Shown here piece after piece: positions 27,344 through 36,703 of a DNA stretch of 64,000 nucleotides. The DNA is from Thiomonas sp. FB-Cd (GTDB lineage Bacteria; Pseudomonadota; Gammaproteobacteria; Burkholderiales; Burkholderiaceae_C). A program made the position numbers and the translations under genes. Numbering within the stretch: position 1 is the first letter of the stretch; the number at the start of each line of letters is the position of its first letter. The notes beneath the pieces were generated by a model, which ran no database searches, was not told the origin of the DNA, and worked only from the letters and a program-made list of their open reading frames with translations. The stretch covers positions 2,480,001-2,544,000 of the forward strand of contig NZ_JPOE01000002.1 of NCBI RefSeq assembly GCF_000733775.1, given 5' to 3'.

Positions 27344-27367
27344 CATGCTGGATAAAATACCAGCATG
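27344..27367 (+). repeat. Perfect hairpin at the left end, covering the tnpB start codon
   Basis: CATGCTGG, 8-nt spacer ATAAAATA, CCAGCATG. The ATG inside the right arm (27365-27367) is the tnpB start, and the spacer contains a TAAAAT sequence resembling a -10 box. Left-end hairpins recognised by TnpA are known for this family; the overlap with the start codon could also limit translation. Confidence 0.75.
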
Positions 27368-28438
27368 CAACGGCGCAAAGTCACGCTCAAGCTGTATCCC
27401 AATGCCGCGCAGATGGCGCGGCTGGAGGCGTGGACGCGGCTGCACTGCGAGTTGTACAACGCGGCGCTCGAAGAACGCATCGATGCCTGGCGCAAGGCCG
27501 GCAAGCATGTCTCCTACTACGACCAACAAAACGTCCTACCGCAGATCAAGGCAGATCGGCCTGAGTTCAACGAACTCGGCAGTCATGCCTTGCAGCAGAC
27601 GCTGCGCCGCCTCGACCTGGCCTTCCAGGCGTTCTTTCGCCGGGTCAAAGCCGGGCAGACGCCCGGCTTTCCGCGTTTCAAGGCAGCGAAGCGGTTCTCG
27701 GGCTTCGCGTATCCAGACCCGTCGGGATGGAAGCTCATGCAGCACGGCGGCCGTGGCGCGACGCTGCGTATCGGCAGCGGCGAGGCCGCCATGTCCATCC
27801 GGGCGCGCGGGCGTCACCGCTTCGGGCCGGATGCCAAGCCCAACGACATCACGCTGACGCGCCGCGGCGGCCAGTGGTTCGTGTCGGTGACGCTGCGCGT
27901 GCCGGACGCCGCCTGTGCACGCCAGCGCACCGAGGAGCAGCGCCGGGGTGTGGACTTCGGCGTCACCGACTGGGCCACGTTCGACGATGGACAGACCATC
28001 GCCAACCCGCGCTGGGTGCGCGAGGAACTGCCGCACCTTGCGGCATTGCAGCGCGAACGCGCCAGAAAGCGCAACGGGTCGTTGCGTTTCAAGAGGCTCG
28101 GGCGTCGGATCGCCAAGCTGCACGATCGCATCGGCAATTTGCGCCGGGACTTCGTGCACAAGGAAACGACCAGGATGGTGCAGCAATGCGCAGTGCTGGC
28201 GACGGAGCAACTGGCTCCGAAGACCATGAGTCGCAGCGCCCGAGGTACGGTGGATGCGCCGGGCCGGCGCGTGAGGCAGAAGTCCGGACTCAACCGAGAA
28301 ATGCTCTCGGCAGCGTTCGGCATGGCGCATCAGATGCTCGCGTACAAAGCGGAAGAAGCTGGCACGCGACTGCACCTGAGTAACACGCGCCAACTCAAAC
28401 CGTCGCAGCGCTGCTCAGCCTGTTGGGAGATCGTGCCC
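27365..28438 (+). pseudogene. tnpB: tnpB, N-terminal part (codons 1-358) of an RNA-guided nuclease TnpB/OrfB
   Basis: TnpB is the RuvC-type, RNA-guided nuclease ancestral to Cas12. This fragment has the N-terminal wedge region (VTLKLYPNAAQMARLEAWTR), the RuvC-I aspartate in RRGVDFGVTDWATFDDG (about D197), the RuvC-II glutamate in CAVLATEQLAPKTM (about E281) and the first zinc pair CSAC (C350, C353). It breaks off after EIVP where the GTGCCC duplication begins; the frame then runs into foreign sequence and stops at 28462. The rest lies at 36704-36910, and the join restores a 424-residue protein in frame. Confidence 0.88.
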
Positions 28439-28483
28439 CCCGACTTCGTAAAGATTCGGTGATGACGTCGGCAGCCGTTACCG

Positions 28484-30122
28484 AGTCGGCCCTGAAGAAC
28501 CCCCGCAACCCGCATGAATACGGGGTTTCTGGGGTGATTGCCGATGGTGTGAACTCCCAGTCTGATTTCCAATAGGGGCTGTTTTCTGGGAGTTTTGCCG
28601 TGATGTTTGCCTGCCCTGCCACCGACGATTTTTTCCGCGCACGCATCGACCACATGATCGATCTGCGCCATCCGCTGGCCGTGCTGGCCTCGCGCATGCC
28701 CTGGCAGGAGATCGAAGCAAGGGTGGCGCAGACTTTTTCGCGCAAAGGTCGTGCAGGCGTGGCCATGCCCGACCTCGATCTCTTCGGCGAACAGGTGCAG
28801 CGCGCGGCTGTGCCCAGCAACGCCGGGCGGCCTCGCGTGGCGCTGCGCATCATGATTGCGCTGCTGTACCTCAAGCACGCTTTCAACGAGTCCGACGAGG
28901 GCGTCGTCGAGCGCTGGGGCGAAACGCCGACCTGGCAGTTCTTCTCGGGTCAGGCGTACTTTGAACACCACCAGCCTTGCGACGCCACCACCCTGATCAA
29001 GTTTCGCAAGCTGCTGGGTGAGGACGGCGTGGAAGAGCTGCTGGCGCAGACCCTCAACGTGGCTGTGGACCTCAAGCTGATCAAGCCGCAGGAATTCGCG
29101 CGGGTGATTGTGGACAGCACGGTGCAGCACAAGGCGATCGCCCACCCCACCGACAGCCGCCTGCTGGAGACGGCGCGCACCAAACTGGTCGAGGCGGCCA
29201 GGGATGCGGGGATTGCGCTCAAGCAGACCTTTGCCAAGGAAGGCAAGGAGCTCAGCCGCAAGGCCGGGCGCTATGCGCATGCCCGCCAGTTCAAACGCAT
29301 GCGTCGGACCATCAAGCGCCAGCGCACCATCGTGGGCCGCTTGCAGCGCGAGATCGAGCGCAAGGGCAGCGCCATTGGCCAGGCGGTGCGAGAGGCACTG
29401 GGTGAGACCTTGCACAAGGCCCAGCGCATCAACGCCCAGAGCGGCCAGCGCAAGGCGGCGGATGGGCAACCCAAGCTTTACGCCTGGCATGCGCCGGAAG
29501 TGGCCTGCATCAGCAAAGGCAAGGCCCGAACGCCCTATGAGTTCGGGGTCAAGGTGGGCATCGCCAGCACGCTCAGGGGCAATCTGATCGTGGGCGCCCG
29601 GGCCTTCCACGGCAACCCGTACGACGGCCACACCCTGAGCGAGCAACTGGAGCAGGCCACGATCCTGATGCAGGACAGCAGGTCAAAGCCGGCAACCGCG
29701 TTCGTTGACCTGGGCTATCGGGGCGTGGATGCTGACAACCCGGATGTGCATATCGTGCACCGGGGCAAATCCAAACGCATCAGCAGCAAGGACAGAAAAC
29801 AACTCAAGCGGCGCCAGGCCATCGAGCCCATCATCGGCCACCTCAAGAGCGATCACCGCATGGACCGTTGCCCCCTCAAGGGTGAGCAGGGCGACCGGTT
29901 GCACGCCGTGCTGTGCGCGGCAGGCTACAACATCAAATGGCTGCTGCGCATGATCGCCAGGAAGGGGGTGCCCTTTGTGCGTCGGCTTTATTTGCGCCTG
30001 TGTCAGGCTGCGTACTTACGCCCGAACTGGCATCAGATGCTGCGCGAACTCGCCTGCTATGCGCTCAACGGCCCAGCGCTGCGACTGGCCGCCGCTTGAA
30101 AATGAATAAATCAGGGCCGACT
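28484..30122 (+). mobile_element. IS5-family insertion sequence (1639 bp)
   Basis: Terminal inverted repeats AGTCGGCCCTGA (28484-28495) and its reverse complement (30111-30122) are flanked by the 4-bp duplication ACCG (28480-28483 and 30123-30126). It holds one transposase gene. The target is inside the IS66-type element, exactly at the stop codon of the DruA-like gene. A 4-bp duplication fits the IS5 subgroup of the IS5 family. Confidence 0.92.
28600..30099 (+). CDS. IS5-family transposase
   Basis: DDE transposase of 499 residues (GTG at 28600 or ATG at 28603; a GGGAG ribosome site lies 7-10 bp upstream). N-terminal DUF772-type domain (GRPRVALRIMIALLYLKHAF; WQFFSGQAYFEHHQPCD), first aspartate region FARVIVDSTVQHKAIAHPTD, a Lys/Arg-rich middle insertion, then ISKGKARTPYEFGVKVGIAS, the second aspartate in TAFVDLGYRGVD and the glutamate in RRQAIEPIIGHLKSDHRM. 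Intact. Confidence 0.93.
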   Translation: MMFACPATDDFFRARIDHMIDLRHPLAVLASRMPWQEIEARVAQTFSRKGRAGVAMPDLDLFGEQVQRAAVPSNAGRPRVALRIMIALLYLKHAFNESDEGVVERWGETPTWQFFSGQAYFEHHQPCDATTLIKFRKLLGEDGVEELLAQTLNVAVDLKLIKPQEFARVIVDSTVQHKAIAHPTDSRLLETARTKLVEAARDAGIALKQTFAKEGKELSRKAGRYAHARQFKRMRRTIKRQRTIVGRLQREIERKGSAIGQAVREALGETLHKAQRINAQSGQRKAADGQPKLYAWHAPEVACISKGKARTPYEFGVKVGIASTLRGNLIVGARAFHGNPYDGHTLSEQLEQATILMQDSRSKPATAFVDLGYRGVDADNPDVHIVHRGKSKRISSKDRKQLKRRQAIEPIIGHLKSDHRMDRCPLKGEQGDRLHAVLCAAGYNIKWLLRMIARKGVPFVRRLYLRLCQAAYLRPNWHQMLRELACYALNGPALRLAAA

Positions 30123-30987
30123 ACCGACGCAGGATGGCTGCGTAGTCGGGACGCAGCGGGTACAGCCAGATGTCCTTGATGGGCAGCGCCTGTTGGTGCG
30201 AGAGGCTCTTTTTGCCGCGGCCGGTTGTTTTGCCCACGAGGACCCAGTTGGCGGCCTTGTAGCAGGTGCCTTTGTGCCTGGGGCTTTCGACGAAGGTCTC
30301 CAGCATCACGGGCGAGTAGCCGTAGCGCTGCTGCCAGTCTTTGGGCAGGCGACGCGCGGCGAGGGCCAGGATCTTCGAGGCAAGCCCTTTGGACTGCACC
30401 CACGGCAGGATCAGGAAGCGCGTGTTGTTGACGACGCGCTGCAGGTTGTTCTGCCGCTGCTCGTGATTCCAGCCGATGAATCGTTCGCGATCGGCCAGCT
30501 TCCAGGCGCTGGCGCCGAAGCTCAGCAAGGCAACGAGCCGGTCGCCAGCGTAGACGTTGTAACGGATCTGGCTGCCCGACATGGGCGTGTAGCCCAGGTA
30601 GTGGTAGCGGGCCACGTATTCGTTCCACAGCTTGGAGGCCGCGCCGACACCGGCGACGACCTCCAGGCGCAAGGCATCCAGAGCATGCACGGGCATGTCG
30701 ATCGCACCTTGCGCATCGGTGGCTGGGGTGGGGTCGAACTGCGCCCGGCGCCGCGGGTGAGGCATCTGTGAGGGTGGCAGCGTGATCAAGCCGTCAGTCT
30801 GCATGCGCAGCATCGCCACGCGGCAACTCATGTCGCTGAGGCGTCCATCAGGGCGGCGCCAGTCCAGCATCTCGCACACCCTGCGCGACAGCGGCGCGCG
30901 CTTGAGCTGGGGGTTTTGCGCCATCAGCCAGGCGATGGCGTCAAGCTCCTCCTGCGTGAACACGCGCCCGCAGTACCGTTTGTTCAT
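30121..30987 (-). CDS. DruA-like DUF4338 protein, passenger of the IS66-type element
   Basis: The 288-residue protein matches the DUF4338 family, which includes DruA of the Druantia anti-phage system: N-terminal LSRRVCEMLDWRRPDGRLSD, then NEYVARYHYLGYTPMSGSQI, VALLSFGASAWKLADRERFI, VVNNTRFLILPWVQSKGLAS, RRLPKDWQQRYGYSPVMLET and GTCYKAANWVLVGKTTGRGK. Its biochemical activity is not established. The start codon overlaps the stop of tnpC (ATGA at 30984-30987), so it is translationally coupled to the transposase and lies inside the same inverted repeats. An IS5-family element sits in its stop codon: the native TAA became TAG, leaving the protein unchanged. None of the Druantia partners druB-E is nearby. 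Confidence 0.85.
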   Translation of the reverse strand: MNKRYCGRVFTQEELDAIAWLMAQNPQLKRAPLSRRVCEMLDWRRPDGRLSDMSCRVAMLRMQTDGLITLPPSQMPHPRRRAQFDPTPATDAQGAIDMPVHALDALRLEVVAGVGAASKLWNEYVARYHYLGYTPMSGSQIRYNVYAGDRLVALLSFGASAWKLADRERFIGWNHEQRQNNLQRVVNNTRFLILPWVQSKGLASKILALAARRLPKDWQQRYGYSPVMLETFVESPRHKGTCYKAANWVLVGKTTGRGKKSLSHQQALPIKDIWLYPLRPDYAAILRR

Positions 30988-32677
30988 GAGCTGTCGATTG
31001 TTGCGCAGGCCACGCCGCGCATCGCGCTCAGCCGGGTTTCATCCATCCGCCAGGGCAGGAAGCGGTCGAGGTCCGCCGGCATGCAGCCGCCCGCGTGTGC
31101 GCAGGCATGCAGATACGCGCTCAGCCAGGTGCGCGGATTGAGCCCCCACAACTCCAGCGTGCCGAGCACACTGCGCATCGTGGCGGCCAGCTGCCCGACC
31201 ACTGGCTGCCCGAACCATAGAAGTTCTTGCGCCCGACCACCGCGGGCCGCAGCGCGCGTTCGGCGGCGTTATTGTCCAGGTCGATGGCGGGATGATCCAG
31301 GAACAGGATCAGTCCCGCCCAGTACGTGCGCAGGGTACGCAGCACCTTGTGCGCCGCGCCTGCCAGTGCCGTGTCGGCCAACTCATCCAGGCAGCGCTGC
31401 TCCATCGAGGCCACCAGCGCGCGCGTCTCGGCATCGCTGTCCTTGAAGGCAGCGTCGCCATCCGCCCATTGTTGCCGCCGCCGGGCGTGCAAGGCGTACA
31501 GCTCGCCGATGAGCCCGACCCAACCCATGGCCCAGTCCCACAGCGCCGGATGCTCGTTGGCCGCGCGCAGGAAGTCGCGCCGCTGGTGCGCCCAGCAGAT
31601 CGACAGCTTCACCCCCGGGTTCAACCGGGCGAACTTGCGGTACGAGGCGTAGCGGTCGACACTGAGAATCCCCTCGTCCACATGGTTGAGTGCGGCCGCC
31701 GGCACCGAGGCCGAGCGTGAAGGATCGAGCACAAAGCACACCGCAGTGGCCGACTGAAACACCCACAGGTACCAGCGATGCCCGACCTTGCCGGGCTCCT
31801 CCTCGAACACCTCCCAGCGTGTCTCGTCGGCATGCCAGTGCGAGCCACGTCGCAGCTCATCCAGGCCAGCCTCGGCCACCGGCCCCAGCAACGGCCACAG
31901 CATGCGCAGGCCCTCGGTGAGCGTGCCCTGCGCGATGTGCAGCCCATGATCGTCCCAGTCCTGCAGCAGCCTGTGGCTGGGCTGCCCATAGAGAAACTTC
32001 GACAGCAGTGCCTCCACCCAGACCGACACGCCCAGCTTGCCCCGTGGGATGAGTTGCGCCGGCGGCGGCGCCGTCACGATGCCGGGAAGTGCGCCGCAGC
32101 AGCACAGCGGCCGGTAGCGGTGCCGACGGACGATGCGGCGGTACGCCTTGACCTCGATCTCCAGAATCTCGGCATCCTGCGTGCCGGGAAACGCGCTCAG
32201 CCCCAGGCCGCAGCGTGGGCACGTCGTCTGCAGCGTCACCTCCTCAACCCTGGCCGGCAATCCGCCCAGGCGCGTGCGGCCGTGACCACGCCGCCCACGT
32301 TGCTGGCCCCGCGGCCGTGGAGGGCCAGCGCTGACCTGGCACACCGCATTGATCGAGCGCGACTGTTCCGTCTTGGCGCCAAACACACGCAGGCGAAGGT
32401 CACGGATCTGCGCCTGCGCGGCCTCCAGCGCCGCCTTCAACTCGGCTTCACGCTGCGCAAATCGCGCCTTCTCGGCCTGATGCCGACGTTCCACGAACTC
32501 GATGCGTGCCACGGCTCGCGCATGCAGGGATCGGTATGCGTTTGCCCGCTGCACCAACTCGATGTGCTCGCGCCTGGTCAGCGTGACCAACTCCTGGTCA
32601 TAGGGTTTCGGCGTCGGCCGTCTTGCGTCGGGCACCGTCCCGATCGCCGAGTCCAGGTCTGCGGCTGTGTCGTTCAC
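30984..32677 (-). pseudogene. tnpC: IS66-family transposase TnpC with a one-base frameshift near its C-terminus
   Basis: N-terminal coiled coil and leucine-rich helix (LKAALEAAQAQIRDLRLRVF GAKTEQS), zinc-binding region CPRCGLGLSAFPG, central DDE domain with HADETRWEVFEEE, ILSVDRYASYRKFA, CWAHQRRDF and NNAAERALRPAVVGRKNFYG. At about 31190-31196 the frame shifts: after QWSG the intact family sequence QLAATMRSVLGTLELWGLNP continues in another frame to a stop at 30984. One missing C (GGCAG where GGCCAG is expected) explains it. The C-terminal domain ends normally with DLDRFLPWRMDE. Either inactive, a sequencing error or a rare natural frameshift. Confidence 0.88.
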
Positions 32678-32827
32678 AGCAAACAGGGTACGGCGAAAAA
32701 ACTTCTGTGTCCAGCACGTTCTGCTCGCGACTCGGTCAGCCTACGTCATCACCGAATCTTTACCCGACTTCGTCACTTCCGGCACGCAAGTTATTGATTG
32801 CATTGAAAGCAAGCTTCCAAACGCAGA

Positions 32828-34531
32828 CTACAGAACGGGGGCAGGAAGGTCGGCCGGTATGGGAGTTGGCAGTGACAGGTCGGCGAACAGGGCCTTTTGT
32901 GCAGGCGTGATCTCGGTGAGTCCGGTGGCGGTTTCGCCGTCAGCGGATTGGACTGTCTGCTGGTGGATGGCGCGCAATTGCTCGAGCCAGCGGGTCGGCG
33001 AGCCCTCGCGCCCGGCGGCGCGCAGCCGCATGCGCATGACGCGGTGCAGGATCAGCGCGATGAAGCAGATCAGCGCATGGGCGCGGATGCGCCTGGGCAG
33101 GCGGTGGTAGACCGGGCCGATGGCGATGTCGGATTTCAGAACCCGGAAGCCGCGCTCGATGTCGGCCAGGCTCTTGTAGCGCTGCACCACCTCGTCGGCT
33201 GGCGCATCGGTGTTGGTCACCAGCAAGAGCTTGCCGTCGAGCAATTGCAGGTACTGCTTGCGCGCTTCGTCGATTTGAAAGCTGAACAGCTTGCCCTGAA
33301 GGTCGACTTTGACCACGTGGGCCATGTTGGCTTCTTTGACCGCGTGATAGAAACGCGCGGTCGCCCCCGAGTCTGATAGCGGCCGCCCGCGCCGGCGCTC
33401 TCCAGCGTCCTGCGCGTCGAGGGTTCCGCTCCACTGCTGGCCCAGCGCGATGAGTTCGGCAAGCTGCTCCTCGCGCTGCTGGCGGCGGCGCGCGGCACCC
33501 TCCGGGTCGTGCGCGACGACCAGGCGCTGCTGTTTCCACGGCAACTGCGCCGCCCAGGGTTTCGTGCTGTCCTGGGTCGCGGCCAACGTGCGCAGATCGT
33601 CGGCGAACTCGCCGTAGCGCGCAGCCGGCACGGCCAGGATGTACTGCACCTCGACGTCGCGCCCCTCGGTGCGCAATGCGTCCTGCAGCGCGCCGAGCTC
33701 CTTGAGGTTGTCCAGGCTGAGCAGTCCGCGATCGGCAATCAGCACCACGCGCTTGAGCGGGTAGCGCGCCAACAGTGCGCGAATCATGGGCAGCAATGTC
33801 CTGGCCTCGGCCGTGTTGCCGGGGTGGACCTCGTGGGCGATGGGCAGCCCGTCGGCGGTCTGCACCAGCGAGAGCATGAATTGACGCTCCACCTTGCCCG
33901 ACTTGCCCATGCCGTGCACGCGCACGTCGCCGGGCAGTTCGCTCTCGCCGGCAACGCTCACCGTCGTGAGGTCGTAGAACACCACCGACAGATCCTGATC
34001 GACCAGCGGGCGCAGCAGCATCGACAGCCTCTCGCCAAGGGCGTCGGCGTGCTCGTCGATCACGTCCATCGCCCGCAGCAGGTGCTGGTGCTGCGGCGCC
34101 TGCGAGAAGGCGAACTCCACCGGCAGGGCCACCGTGTCCAGCCAGCGCAGCACGCCGAGCTTGCTCTGCGCGTCGCTGAGGCGGTTCCACACCATGGCGC
34201 GCAGGCACCCCAGCACGTCGACCTCGGTCTTGGACCTGCGCCAGGCGCCGGCCAGCTCATCGAGTTCGAGCTGTTTCCACAGCTGCGCCAGCGCCCACAC
34301 GTCGCCGGCCTGGCGGCTGGCCAGAAAGCGCAGCCCTTGCAGCGACGAAGCTGCAGGAGCGCGGCCCTGGGCGCGCTGCAGTCCGGCGATGAGCTTGTCC
34401 ACGTCGCCCCCGACGTCCAGACGACCCAGCGTGCACACCGTGCGCTGACGCGGCTGACCGGCGTCGTTGCGAAACGATTCCACGAGCTGGGCGTAGCGCC
34501 GACCGCCGGACTGGGTGATCTTGATGAACAT
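32828..34531 (-). CDS. IS1634-family transposase
   Basis: DDE transposase of the IS4 superfamily, 567 residues, intact. Marks: N-terminal VESFRNDAGQPRQRTVCTLG typical of IS1634/IS1549 proteins, the first aspartate in LSVVFYDLTTVSVAGESELP, the second in LIADRGLLSLDNLKELG, the YREK-like region YKSLADIERGFRVLKSDIAI with the catalytic glutamate and RIRAHALICFIALILHRVM. It fills the part of the 8.27-kb block between the IS66-type element and the group II intron. Confidence 0.93.
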   Translation of the reverse strand: MFIKITQSGGRRYAQLVESFRNDAGQPRQRTVCTLGRLDVGGDVDKLIAGLQRAQGRAPAASSLQGLRFLASRQAGDVWALAQLWKQLELDELAGAWRRSKTEVDVLGCLRAMVWNRLSDAQSKLGVLRWLDTVALPVEFAFSQAPQHQHLLRAMDVIDEHADALGERLSMLLRPLVDQDLSVVFYDLTTVSVAGESELPGDVRVHGMGKSGKVERQFMLSLVQTADGLPIAHEVHPGNTAEARTLLPMIRALLARYPLKRVVLIADRGLLSLDNLKELGALQDALRTEGRDVEVQYILAVPAARYGEFADDLRTLAATQDSTKPWAAQLPWKQQRLVVAHDPEGAARRRQQREEQLAELIALGQQWSGTLDAQDAGERRRGRPLSDSGATARFYHAVKEANMAHVVKVDLQGKLFSFQIDEARKQYLQLLDGKLLLVTNTDAPADEVVQRYKSLADIERGFRVLKSDIAIGPVYHRLPRRIRAHALICFIALILHRVMRMRLRAAGREGSPTRWLEQLRAIHQQTVQSADGETATGLTEITPAQKALFADLSLPTPIPADLPAPVL

Positions 34532-34815
34532 GGCCGAAGTGTAGCTGGCGCGCTCCGCGAAATCAACTACACAACATTTACAAACGTGCCACTACACGCA
34601 ATCAACGAGAAACGGCCTCACGGTGCACTCAAGTCATTGATTCAACACGCCCCGGTCGGCGTGCAAGCGCCGCGCACAGACCAAAATCGGCCCGGAAAGT
34701 GTAGAGTCGAGATGTGGCGCGCCGACCGTAGGTCCAGGTTGTCTGTTTGCCGCCCCTTTCGTCTGGCGGTGCCCGAGTACCCTCGCCATAGCCACGTTTC
34801 CACACCCCGCTCATC

Positions 34816-34848
34816 GAACCCGGCGTGCCGATTTCCGGCACCGGGCTC
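34816..34848 (-). ncRNA. Group II intron domain V
   Basis: A 33-nt hairpin on the reverse strand beginning GAGCCCGG and ending CCGGGTTC, with an AGC catalytic triad in the 5' arm, a GAAA-type terminal loop and a two-base bulge in the 3' arm. Position just after the maturase gene is as expected. Confidence 0.8.
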
Positions 34849-34861
34849 TCGGACAAGGCGC

Positions 34862-36220
34862 TCATGCCTTCGCACACGGCCAGTTGCTGCGCCGCGCCGA
34901 CAGTCGTTCCAGACCCAAGGTCTCGAACAGGTACTCGTAGGGATACAAGACCCTGCCACTGCGTCGCTGCTTGTGTTTGCGCAACAACCACCGCCACAGC
35001 CGCTGCGTGCAATACGCTTCCACGGCGCGATAGGCATTGCCCACCGTGCCGAGGCTGAAGTAATTGGCCCAACCCCGAAGCACGCGGTTGAGCTGCTGCA
35101 CAACGTCAGCAGTTTCCTTCCAGGTCCACTTCCGATCCGTGATGGCGTGGAGCTCCTCCACCACACCACGCATGCTTTTCCTCGACGGCCTCAACCCATA
35201 GTAGGGATTGCCCGTGCGAGGCGAGTACATGCGCGCGAACGTGTACCCCAGAAAGTCAAAGCTCTCGCTTTGCGCCGTGCAGATGCGCGTCTTCGCCTCG
35301 TTGACCGCCAGTCCCAGCTTGCCCGTAATCGTGCGCAATCCTTCCAGCGCCACATGGGCCTCGCCCGGTCTGCACAGAATCACGAGGTCGTCGGCGTACG
35401 TCACCACGCGAGCCGCCAGTCCCAGTCGCTTCTGCCATTGTTTGAGGCCCAGAAGGACCCTTCGCATGGACAGATTTGCCAACAAAGGACTCAGCGGGGA
35501 GCCTTGCGGGATGCCCCGGCCGGTGTCGCGGTTCGTCGTCGTCCATCGCGGTTTGCCGCGATCGCCCGCTTCCTCCACCACGCATTCCAGCCAGCTCTTG
35601 ATGAGCGCCAGCATCCGCCGATCCACCACGCGTCGGGCCACGCTGCGCATGAGCGCGGCGTGCTCGATGCTGTCGAAGTACGCCTCCAGGTCGGCGTCTA
35701 CCACCTGCGTGTAGCCGTCGCGCAAACCCTGCGTCACGGCGCTGAGCGCGCCGTGTGCATTGTGGCCCTTGCGATAGGCGTATTGCTCAGGCTGCAGATC
35801 CGACTCGAAGATCGGCTCCAGAATCAGCGTCGCTGCCATCATGCACACGCGGTCGGCCAGGCACGAGATGCCCAGCGGCCGCATCTTGCCGTTCGCCTTG
35901 GGGATGTACACCCGGCGAATCGGCTTCGGTCGATAACTGCCATCTTTCAGCGTCTGTGCCAGTTCCCCGAGCCACCGCTCCGGACCGTACCTGGCCACAT
36001 CCTCGAACGTCAGCCCGTCCACACCCGGCGCGCCCTTGTTGGCGCGGCACCTCGCGTAGGCGTGCTCAAGCACGTCCGCACGATACAGCTTGTCGTACAG
36101 CGCGTAGAAGCGAAACTCAGGTTCGGCCTTCGCTTTCGCATGCAATGCCTCCCGCAGATTGCCGACACCCTCCGGAGTTCGTAGGTCGCCCAATCTCCTG
36201 CCCTCAGCTGCCTTTGACAT
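34862..36220 (-). CDS. ltrA: Group II intron-encoded reverse transcriptase/maturase
   Basis: Multifunctional protein that helps splicing and retrohoming. With the ATG at 36220 (AAGGA ribosome site 3 bp upstream; an earlier ATG at 36256 is weaker) it has 452 residues: RT0-RT2 (CRANKGAPGVDGLTFEDVAR, RRVYIPKANGKMRPLGISCL), RT3-4 (VVDADLEAYFDSIEHAALMR), GIPQGSPLSPLLANLSM, the catalytic YADD in VVTYADDLVILC, and the maturase X domain (RVLRGWANYFSLGTVGNAYR). It ends at the thumb/X region and lacks an HNH endonuclease, as in endonuclease-free introns. Confidence 0.93.
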   Translation of the reverse strand: MSKAAEGRRLGDLRTPEGVGNLREALHAKAKAEPEFRFYALYDKLYRADVLEHAYARCRANKGAPGVDGLTFEDVARYGPERWLGELAQTLKDGSYRPKPIRRVYIPKANGKMRPLGISCLADRVCMMAATLILEPIFESDLQPEQYAYRKGHNAHGALSAVTQGLRDGYTQVVDADLEAYFDSIEHAALMRSVARRVVDRRMLALIKSWLECVVEEAGDRGKPRWTTTNRDTGRGIPQGSPLSPLLANLSMRRVLLGLKQWQKRLGLAARVVTYADDLVILCRPGEAHVALEGLRTITGKLGLAVNEAKTRICTAQSESFDFLGYTFARMYSPRTGNPYYGLRPSRKSMRGVVEELHAITDRKWTWKETADVVQQLNRVLRGWANYFSLGTVGNAYRAVEAYCTQRLWRWLLRKHKQRRSGRVLYPYEYLFETLGLERLSARRSNWPCAKA

Positions 36221-36703
36221 CGTCCTTGAACCAGGGCCCCTTCCCTCCACCGGCATTACCCGGCTTCGGCAGTACTACAGGCCCCTCCGCCATCCTGCAC
36301 CGCCCGCTTCCGCCGTCACCGGCCAGCGGTTGTACGTCCCTTCGTACACGGCACAGGACTTCCCATGTTGCGGTCGCTTTCCCCTTGCATCCATGCCGCC
36401 GCCAATACCCCGGCGCGTCCACTCGGAGCCCTACCATGCTCGTCTCTCCAAGCAGTGCCAGCCTTCCCCGCATCAACTGACGGGTCGGCACGCGCATCAC
36501 CCTTTTCGAGGATTGCTCAGCGTTCACTCGCGTTGCGGCCTGCATGCTCGCCAAGTCACCTAGCGTGACCCTCTACACCGAAGGCTTCAGTCATTTCGTT
36601 ACCTCCATCACTGCTCCGGTTGCTTCCGGCTGGAGCACTCTGGCCGGGTGGGATTCGCACCCACTGGAAAGCGCCACCTTTCATGGCGCACGTTGAACTT
36701 GGG

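Follow-up and report, generated by a model that had tools for sequence, protein, structure and literature searches.

A DruA-family protein with Mom-like features paired with the transposase of an IS66-type element in Thiomonas sp. FB-Cd and with DDE transposases elsewhere

A stretch of 64,000 nucleotides from the genome of Thiomonas sp. FB-Cd (contig NZ_JPOE01000002.1, positions 2,480,001 to 2,544,000 of the forward strand; hereafter the window) carries an insertion sequence (IS) of the IS66 type, in which the transposase gene tnpC is paired with a gene of the DruA family (DUF4338, PF14236). The encoded protein looks more like phage Mu Mom than like a phage-defence protein, and at about even odds (probability roughly 0.5) we consider it a transposase-dedicated, Mom-like putative DNA-modifying module that acts with DDE transposases. 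What the computations show is the element with its copies, its coupled and fused arrangements, a predicted fold and a set of conserved residues; an IS66 subgroup with an accessory druA gene is real.

As the first-pass annotation of the window had held, the DUF4338 gene and tnpC belong to one element. The 288-amino-acid (aa) product matches PF14236 with 140.3 bits (profile region 46–225 of 297 only), the tnpC product matches PF03050 (DDE_Tnp_IS66) with 192.3 bits (cut-off 23.1), and both genes share 25-bp terminal repeats and an 8-bp target duplication (Table 1). A start of the element at 30121, as annotated before, was rejected by comparison with the other copies in the genome, which places the true left end at 28448; between the left terminal repeat and druA stands a nested IS (28485–30121) whose insertion point is exactly the druA stop codon, with the 288-aa frame undamaged.

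The genome contains eight PF14236 matches, comprising seven full copies and one 3' fragment (L015). Four full copies are 2674 bp long, while the window copy and two others measure 4316–4317 bp. All seven start with GTAAAGATTCGGTGATGACGTCGGC, finish with its near-perfect inverse (24/25) and have a perfect 8-bp target duplication; the left end of the window copy is shared by the other six full copies, with a near match in L015. Intact 2674-bp copies hold tnpC and druA only, with 30 nt downstream of druA and just 86 nt ahead of tnpC, and tnpA and tnpB are absent, in agreement with the earlier annotation. The ATGA overlap of tnpC and druA that it described occurs in the six other full copies, each with a tnpC frame of 564 aa, and not in the window copy, whose tnpC is 518 aa long and stops 133 nt before druA because one base is missing near 31193; this base is the sole difference from copy L010. 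The composite of element and nested IS appears to have moved as a unit, since it recurs in L009, 4317 bp long, at a different site and with a different duplication. The window copy, L010 and L013 (three of the seven) share one end position of an IS4/IS1634-like element (window 32764–34883), with L013 in the orientation opposite to the other two, and this shared site may reflect a preferred target or compound movement. Target duplications are alike in L055, L063, L009, L013, L014 and the window (AACTCGGG, GAACTCGT, GAAGTCGG; CCGGGTTC on the other strand) and GAACCCG lies within the terminal repeats of several relatives; a target preference is possible.

Pairing with transposases is common among relatives of the protein. 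A scan of a genome collection (84,980 species, three related protein queries) returned at least 569 relatives, of which the best 80 were analysed, with partners assigned from open reading frame (ORF) calls and HMMER classification of the neighbourhood. A transposase adjoins or is fused to the gene in 72 of these 80 (IS66, n = 58; IS4/Tn5, n = 11; IS1634, n = 2; other DDE, n = 1), and the IS66-partnered set among them alone spans eight phyla. The pair is not peculiar to the Thiomonas element, because IS66-type loci with it occur in many genomes. Among 40 listed IS66-type loci, searched over 260 bp on each side for ends starting with GTnA and compared with 40 shuffles, 26 have inverted repeats that beat all shuffles; a perfect 8-bp duplication is present as well in ten, three of which (L106–L108) are copies in one genome. 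No repeat above shuffles was found in 12 of the 40 loci, and another two left no room for the search. The IS66 subgroup with its own accessory gene, which had been put forward from the window alone, is thus borne out. At E ≤ 1e-60, TnpC was found in the window's genome alone among 396 genomes, of each of which no more than three candidates were scored. Viral contigs of IMG/VR (L238, L239, L240) carry druA followed by an overlapping IS66 tnpC, one of them with the pair near both ends.

A less biased sample was obtained by applying the Pfam model to 398 genomes of the window's phylum, 299 of Bacillota, 237 of Thermodesulfobacteriota and 236 of Planctomycetota, the last three phyla being named after the titles of their centre loci; this gave matches in 17, 37, 32 and 22 genomes, respectively. 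The best retrieved locus per genome, with the window genome and three centre loci excluded and nine genomes without a retrieved locus, yielded 95 loci: 16 of Druantia type (by PADLOC score), 56 coupled or fused to a transposase and 23 others (4/6/6 in the window's phylum, 7/17/5 in Bacillota, 4/17/8 in Thermodesulfobacteriota and 1/16/4 in Planctomycetota). For 11 of the 56 coupled loci the partner is IS1380-like or IS1182-like and lies under NCBI cut-offs. L317 involves nested frames, and four loci (L042, L170, L176 and L302) are partial or broken. Gene overlaps are overstated because ORFs were taken from the first start codon; some gene-order labels (e.g. L057, L097, L128, L130) derive from overlapping frames, and short ORFs (84 and 85 aa) served to name the partners of L116 and L027. 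DruA-type genes for which no adjoining transposase was found (L126, 1122–2009; L131, 3043–3933; L105; L111; L075) suggest relics or domesticated copies.

The partners belong to the IS66, IS4/Tn5, IS701, ISAs1, ISKra4 and IS1634 families, in both gene orders and as fusions, and partners above NCBI cut-offs occur for each of them: IS66 (L106, L089, L182), IS4 (L033, L034, L192, L318), ISKra4 (L032), IS1634 (L123), ISAs1 (L028, L340) and IS701 (L298, L308). In-frame fusion was observed with four transposase families, namely IS66 (L109, 808 aa), IS4/Tn5 (L034, L122, L125, L183, L184 and others), ISAs1 (L028, L036, L188 and others) and IS701 (L298, L308). In one Arenicellales genome (L110, L112, L120, L192–L203) the DruA family has 52 matches, which fall into four or more IS architectures and include many fragments. 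As read from the printed ends, the ISAs1-type fusion of this genome has 9-bp duplications in all three compared copies and its Tn5-type fusion perfect 8-bp duplications in three of four copies and 7/8 in the fourth; of three copies of an IS4-type fusion, one has a 10-bp duplication. This repeated coupling and fusion makes likely the role in transposition that the first-pass annotation had suggested; its word "passenger" understates those cases in which domain and transposase are one fused protein.

The 288-aa protein is predicted to comprise an N-terminal helix-turn-helix (HTH)-like part (residues ~1–70) and a Mom-like GNAT core (~103–288). Its predicted fold agrees with that of the Mom family (PF25680) and with the GNAT fold, two structure methods both rank Mom first, and comparison with the profile of Mom, the sole GNAT profile compared, gives a strong match. 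The Pfam Mom model matches 30 of 57 relatives at E ≤ 0.01 and gives three matches at E ≤ 1e-8 in the 398 genomes of the window's phylum. Two comparisons with Mom agree in pairing H129, Y130, S204, E234, G240 and Y243 of the window protein with H48, Y49, S114, D139, G146 and Y149 of Mom. Mom H48, Y49, D139 and Y149 are invariant in 11 Mom sequences, which have S or T at 114; E234 of the window protein replaces Mom D139. Mom S114 (AAF01131.2 numbering) is the residue that reads A in PDB entry 8bv8, titled 'inactive mutant S124A'. Across 97 transposon-type proteins H129 is H in all 97, R190 is R in 97, S204 is S in 96 and T in one, E234 is E or D in 93 and Y243 is Y in 94; H129, R190, S/T204, D/E234 and Y/F243 occur together in 91. 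No credible match was found in PDB sequence searches for a DruA relative, nor any match to the window protein in the phage records searched.

We infer catalysis, DNA as the substrate, which base is modified and an effect on transposition. The DUF4338 GNAT-fold protein would serve DDE transposases as their dedicated partner, through translational coupling to IS66 tnpC in this element and through coupling or fusion to other families elsewhere, and would modify bases, probably adenine, by Mom-like acyl or methylcarbamoyl chemistry. The modified DNA would be that handled by the transposase complex (transposon ends, excised intermediate or target), and the modification may control or protect transposition. 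Action at the same place and time as the transposase is suggested because of the ATGA coupling and the fusions. Dam methylation controls IS10 and IS50, which offers a known parallel for adenine marking of IS ends. Base modification by a transposon protein is proposed because phage Mu Mom (family PF25680), named 'Methylcarbamoylase mom' in the PDB (8bv8), transfers an acyl group to N6 of adenine, as given in the available part of PMC7824862.

Several observations weigh against a DNA-modifying module dedicated to transposases. The structural Z for Mom is just 1.3 above that for other GNATs, and the window protein scores 23.0 bits with Pfam Mom (PF25680), below the curated cut-off of 27.1. Y130 is the most variable of the positions considered (Y in just 84 of 97) and is another residue in all six IS1380-like proteins and in three of the seven Tn5 fusions in the tree. 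The match of R190 to Mom R101 is a hand alignment only and is putative, because aligners place R101 elsewhere. Eight of the 80 relatives have no transposase next to them under the same ORF and HMMER rule, two of them (L084, L129) being cut at a contig edge and one (L102) having a broken IS66 gene ~450 nt away, and the 23 other loci of the 95 sampled are fragments, at contig edges or without a recognised partner. GNATs have an acyl-CoA (acyl-coenzyme A) loop with the motif Q/R-x-x-G-x-G/A; this loop is degenerate in the family (Q/R at 198 in 56, G at 201 in 14 and A/G at 203 in 97 of 97) and reads QSKGLA in the window protein. Ordinary acyl-CoA use is possible because the degenerate loop is kept.

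It is this loop remnant that keeps alive the best-placed alternative, a protein acyltransferase that acetylates the transposase or a host factor and thereby determines how often the element transposes or reduces damage to the host. We regard it as unlikely: Mom is the best match by both structure methods, its profile comparison is strong (with no other GNAT profile compared), conservation extends to the Mom-type residues but the glycine of the CoA loop is present in just 14 of 97 proteins, and several unrelated transposases would need to be substrates.

Slightly less likely still is a non-catalytic DNA-binding helper, in which the HTH-like part and GNAT core would form a targeting or end-binding subunit for the transposase. 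The N-terminal part is predicted to be HTH-like with a pLDDT (predicted local distance difference test) of 90.9 and has weak fold matches only. It is kept in the IS66 fusion and other Tn5 fusions and is missing from the ISAs1 and IS701 fusions and the Tn5 fusions L034 and L304 (L028, L036, L188, L200–L202, L298, L308, L034, L304), where the match starts at profile position 65–121 of 282; this distribution was counted in favour of the helper.

The relation to Druantia DruA was assessed with a tree of cores, in which Druantia-type DruA was assigned by PADLOC score alone and not by operon context. From 183 rows 27 were dropped (core below 180 residues or 100 bits), of which L029, L030, L163, L164, L165 and L168 re-entered as whole Druantia-type proteins; the six other window-genome copies were left out as well, and removal of 53 of 161 rows as near-copies at 85% left 108 cores. 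The tree was built by a quick method, without bootstrap and unrooted, and L028, L057, L097 and L102 were labelled by hand for it (L102 counts as 'none' among the 80 relatives). A very long 100% branch parts 11 Druantia-type DruA from the 97 transposon-type proteins. Partner labels change 21 times (minimum possible 9, shuffled mean 54), with up to nine changes from rows without a known partner; the module therefore switched partner repeatedly, yet with long stays with one.

The Druantia-type proteins differ from the transposon-type ones at the Mom-like positions, having W at H129, S (one Q) at Y130, V/T (one R) at R190, G (one A) at S204, mixed residues at E234 and Y at Y243, so that none of the 11 keeps the residue set in an alignment that spans the very long branch. 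The PADLOC DruA score of the window protein is 22.7 bits, versus 268–701 for four Druantia-type DruA scanned alongside, and no PF09369 match was found in the window's genome, where druE was tested via PF09369 only and druB–D were not searched; PF09369 is the family given for DruE in the available part of PMC7251935. On these grounds (PADLOC score, 100% branch, residue set, no PF09369) the window protein was rejected as a Druantia DruA. The earlier suggestion that a mobile element was the source of Druantia DruA was likewise dropped, given the long branch, the scores and the absence of the Mom-like residues; neither group is nested in the other, and the tree is silent on which side came first because it is unrooted and the branch is very long.

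A defence cargo, that is, a Druantia-like anti-phage or anti-plasmid gene benefiting the host or shielding the element from restriction, is accordingly improbable: the residue set is in none of the 11 Druantia-type DruA, the PADLOC score and the lack of a DruE-family match in the genome speak against it, and fusion with several transposase families is not expected of cargo. It draws on the naming of the Pfam family as DruA (140 bits) and on phage Mu Mom, which is annotated as a DNA modification enzyme and has an anti-restriction role. In the available text of PMC10853773, moreover, a GNAT domain annotated DUF4338 is described as N-terminal in some DndF proteins.

Between the two copy lineages in the Thiomonas genome, druA has nine synonymous and three non-synonymous codon differences (p = 0.0003 or 0.001 in two neutral simulations) and is under purifying selection; tnpC compared with L011 has 12 synonymous and ten non-synonymous codon differences (p = 0.004 or 0.02 under two neutral models). 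A neutral hitchhiker trapped between IS ends and copied along is the least likely rival and very improbable, common as passenger genes are in IS-derived elements, given this selection on druA, the coupling seen in 72 of the 80 relatives (eight phyla in the IS66 set by itself), and the in-frame fusions in IS66, IS4, ISAs1 and IS701.

A wider form of the preferred DNA-modification reading is held tentatively, as conceivable though short of probable. The protein would be a portable Mom-like hypermodification module, repeatedly recruited by at least six unrelated DDE families and marking their own ends, intermediates or targets as a self-encoded counterpart of Dam, with Druantia DruA as a distant branch without the active site.

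If the Mom-like reading holds, many members outside Druantia are poorly served by the 'phage-defence' label (DruA/DUF4338), which misleads: they would be partners of transposons, with an active site that is Mom-like and probably modifies DNA. It would open a route to the molecular role of DUF4338 and mark out many-copy genomes as places to seek an unusual base directly. With at least six coupled or fused transposase families, the one hypothesis of a transposon-borne DNA-modifying enzyme in the transposition machinery is testable in several systems.

Table 1. Features of the IS66-type element and its nested IS (window coordinates).
Feature	Position	Strand	Remark
IS66-type element with tnpC and druA	28448-32763		From comparison with other copies in the genome
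Target duplication, 8 bp, left copy, CCGACTTC	28440..28447		
Target duplication, 8 bp, right copy, CCGACTTC	32764..32771		
Terminal inverted repeat, left, 25 bp	28448..28472	+	24/25 identity to right repeat
Terminal inverted repeat, right, 25 bp	32739..32763	-	
druA-like gene (DUF4338/PF14236), 288 aa	30121..30987	-	
druA start, within ATGA	30984..30987	-	tnpC stop overlap in six other full copies
IS66 tnpC, GTG start, 518 aa in window copy	31121..32677	-	Frameshift near 31193
Nested IS, 1637 bp, DUF772 + DDE_Tnp_1	28485..30121	+	Absent from 4/7 full copies
Nested IS transposase ORF	28600-30099		Pfam DUF772/DDE
Nested IS 6-bp duplication TACCGA, left copy	28479..28484		
Nested IS 6-bp duplication TACCGA, right copy	30122..30127		

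In the neighbourhood of the element, a TnpB (OrfB_IS605) gene at 27365–28462 is interrupted by the insertion at 28447, inside its Cas12f1-like TNB domain, of which Pfam matched profile positions 1–35 of 60. The ORF list also gives, at 34862–36256, a 464-aa frame containing a YADD motif; it probably encodes the reverse transcriptase of a group II intron.

The element families, Mom, Druantia and the GNAT fold are known; their combination and the conserved Mom-like site were not met in the literature searched. No paper linking DruA with IS66 or with a transposase was found there, most subscription papers being outside the search, and ISfinder entries may already show the extra gene. The lone 'transposase' mention in the available text of PMC10853773 stands in an unrelated context, and in the available texts of PMC10853773 and PMC6174562, in which both 'DUF4338' and 'transposase' are present, no link is drawn between them. 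As far as the available part of PMC12898284 goes, the element is closest in layout to the ISBst12 group of IS66, in which tnpC alone, as a single ORF, is the rule: it shares tnpC without tnpA and tnpB and the 8-bp duplication with that group, and ends starting GTAA/GTGA with its member ISDge4, but has a second, coupled gene, druA, inside its ends, whereas ISDge4 is single-ORF. Canonical IS66 members differ in having tnpA and tnpB. Druantia type I DruA (PADLOC DruA1) belongs to the same Pfam family, PF14236, and Druantia-type DruA differs at the positions of H129, R190 and S204 in the transposon proteins, with W, V/T and G there, respectively. Some DndF proteins share the N-terminal DUF4338 domain, called GNAT, but according to the available text of PMC10853773 it is fused there to an anti-invader ATPase and not to a transposase. 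Compared with phage Mu Mom, finally, the window protein has an extra N-terminal part and an extra segment before strand 4, and its family has a partly kept CoA loop and is coupled to the transposases of bacterial IS elements.

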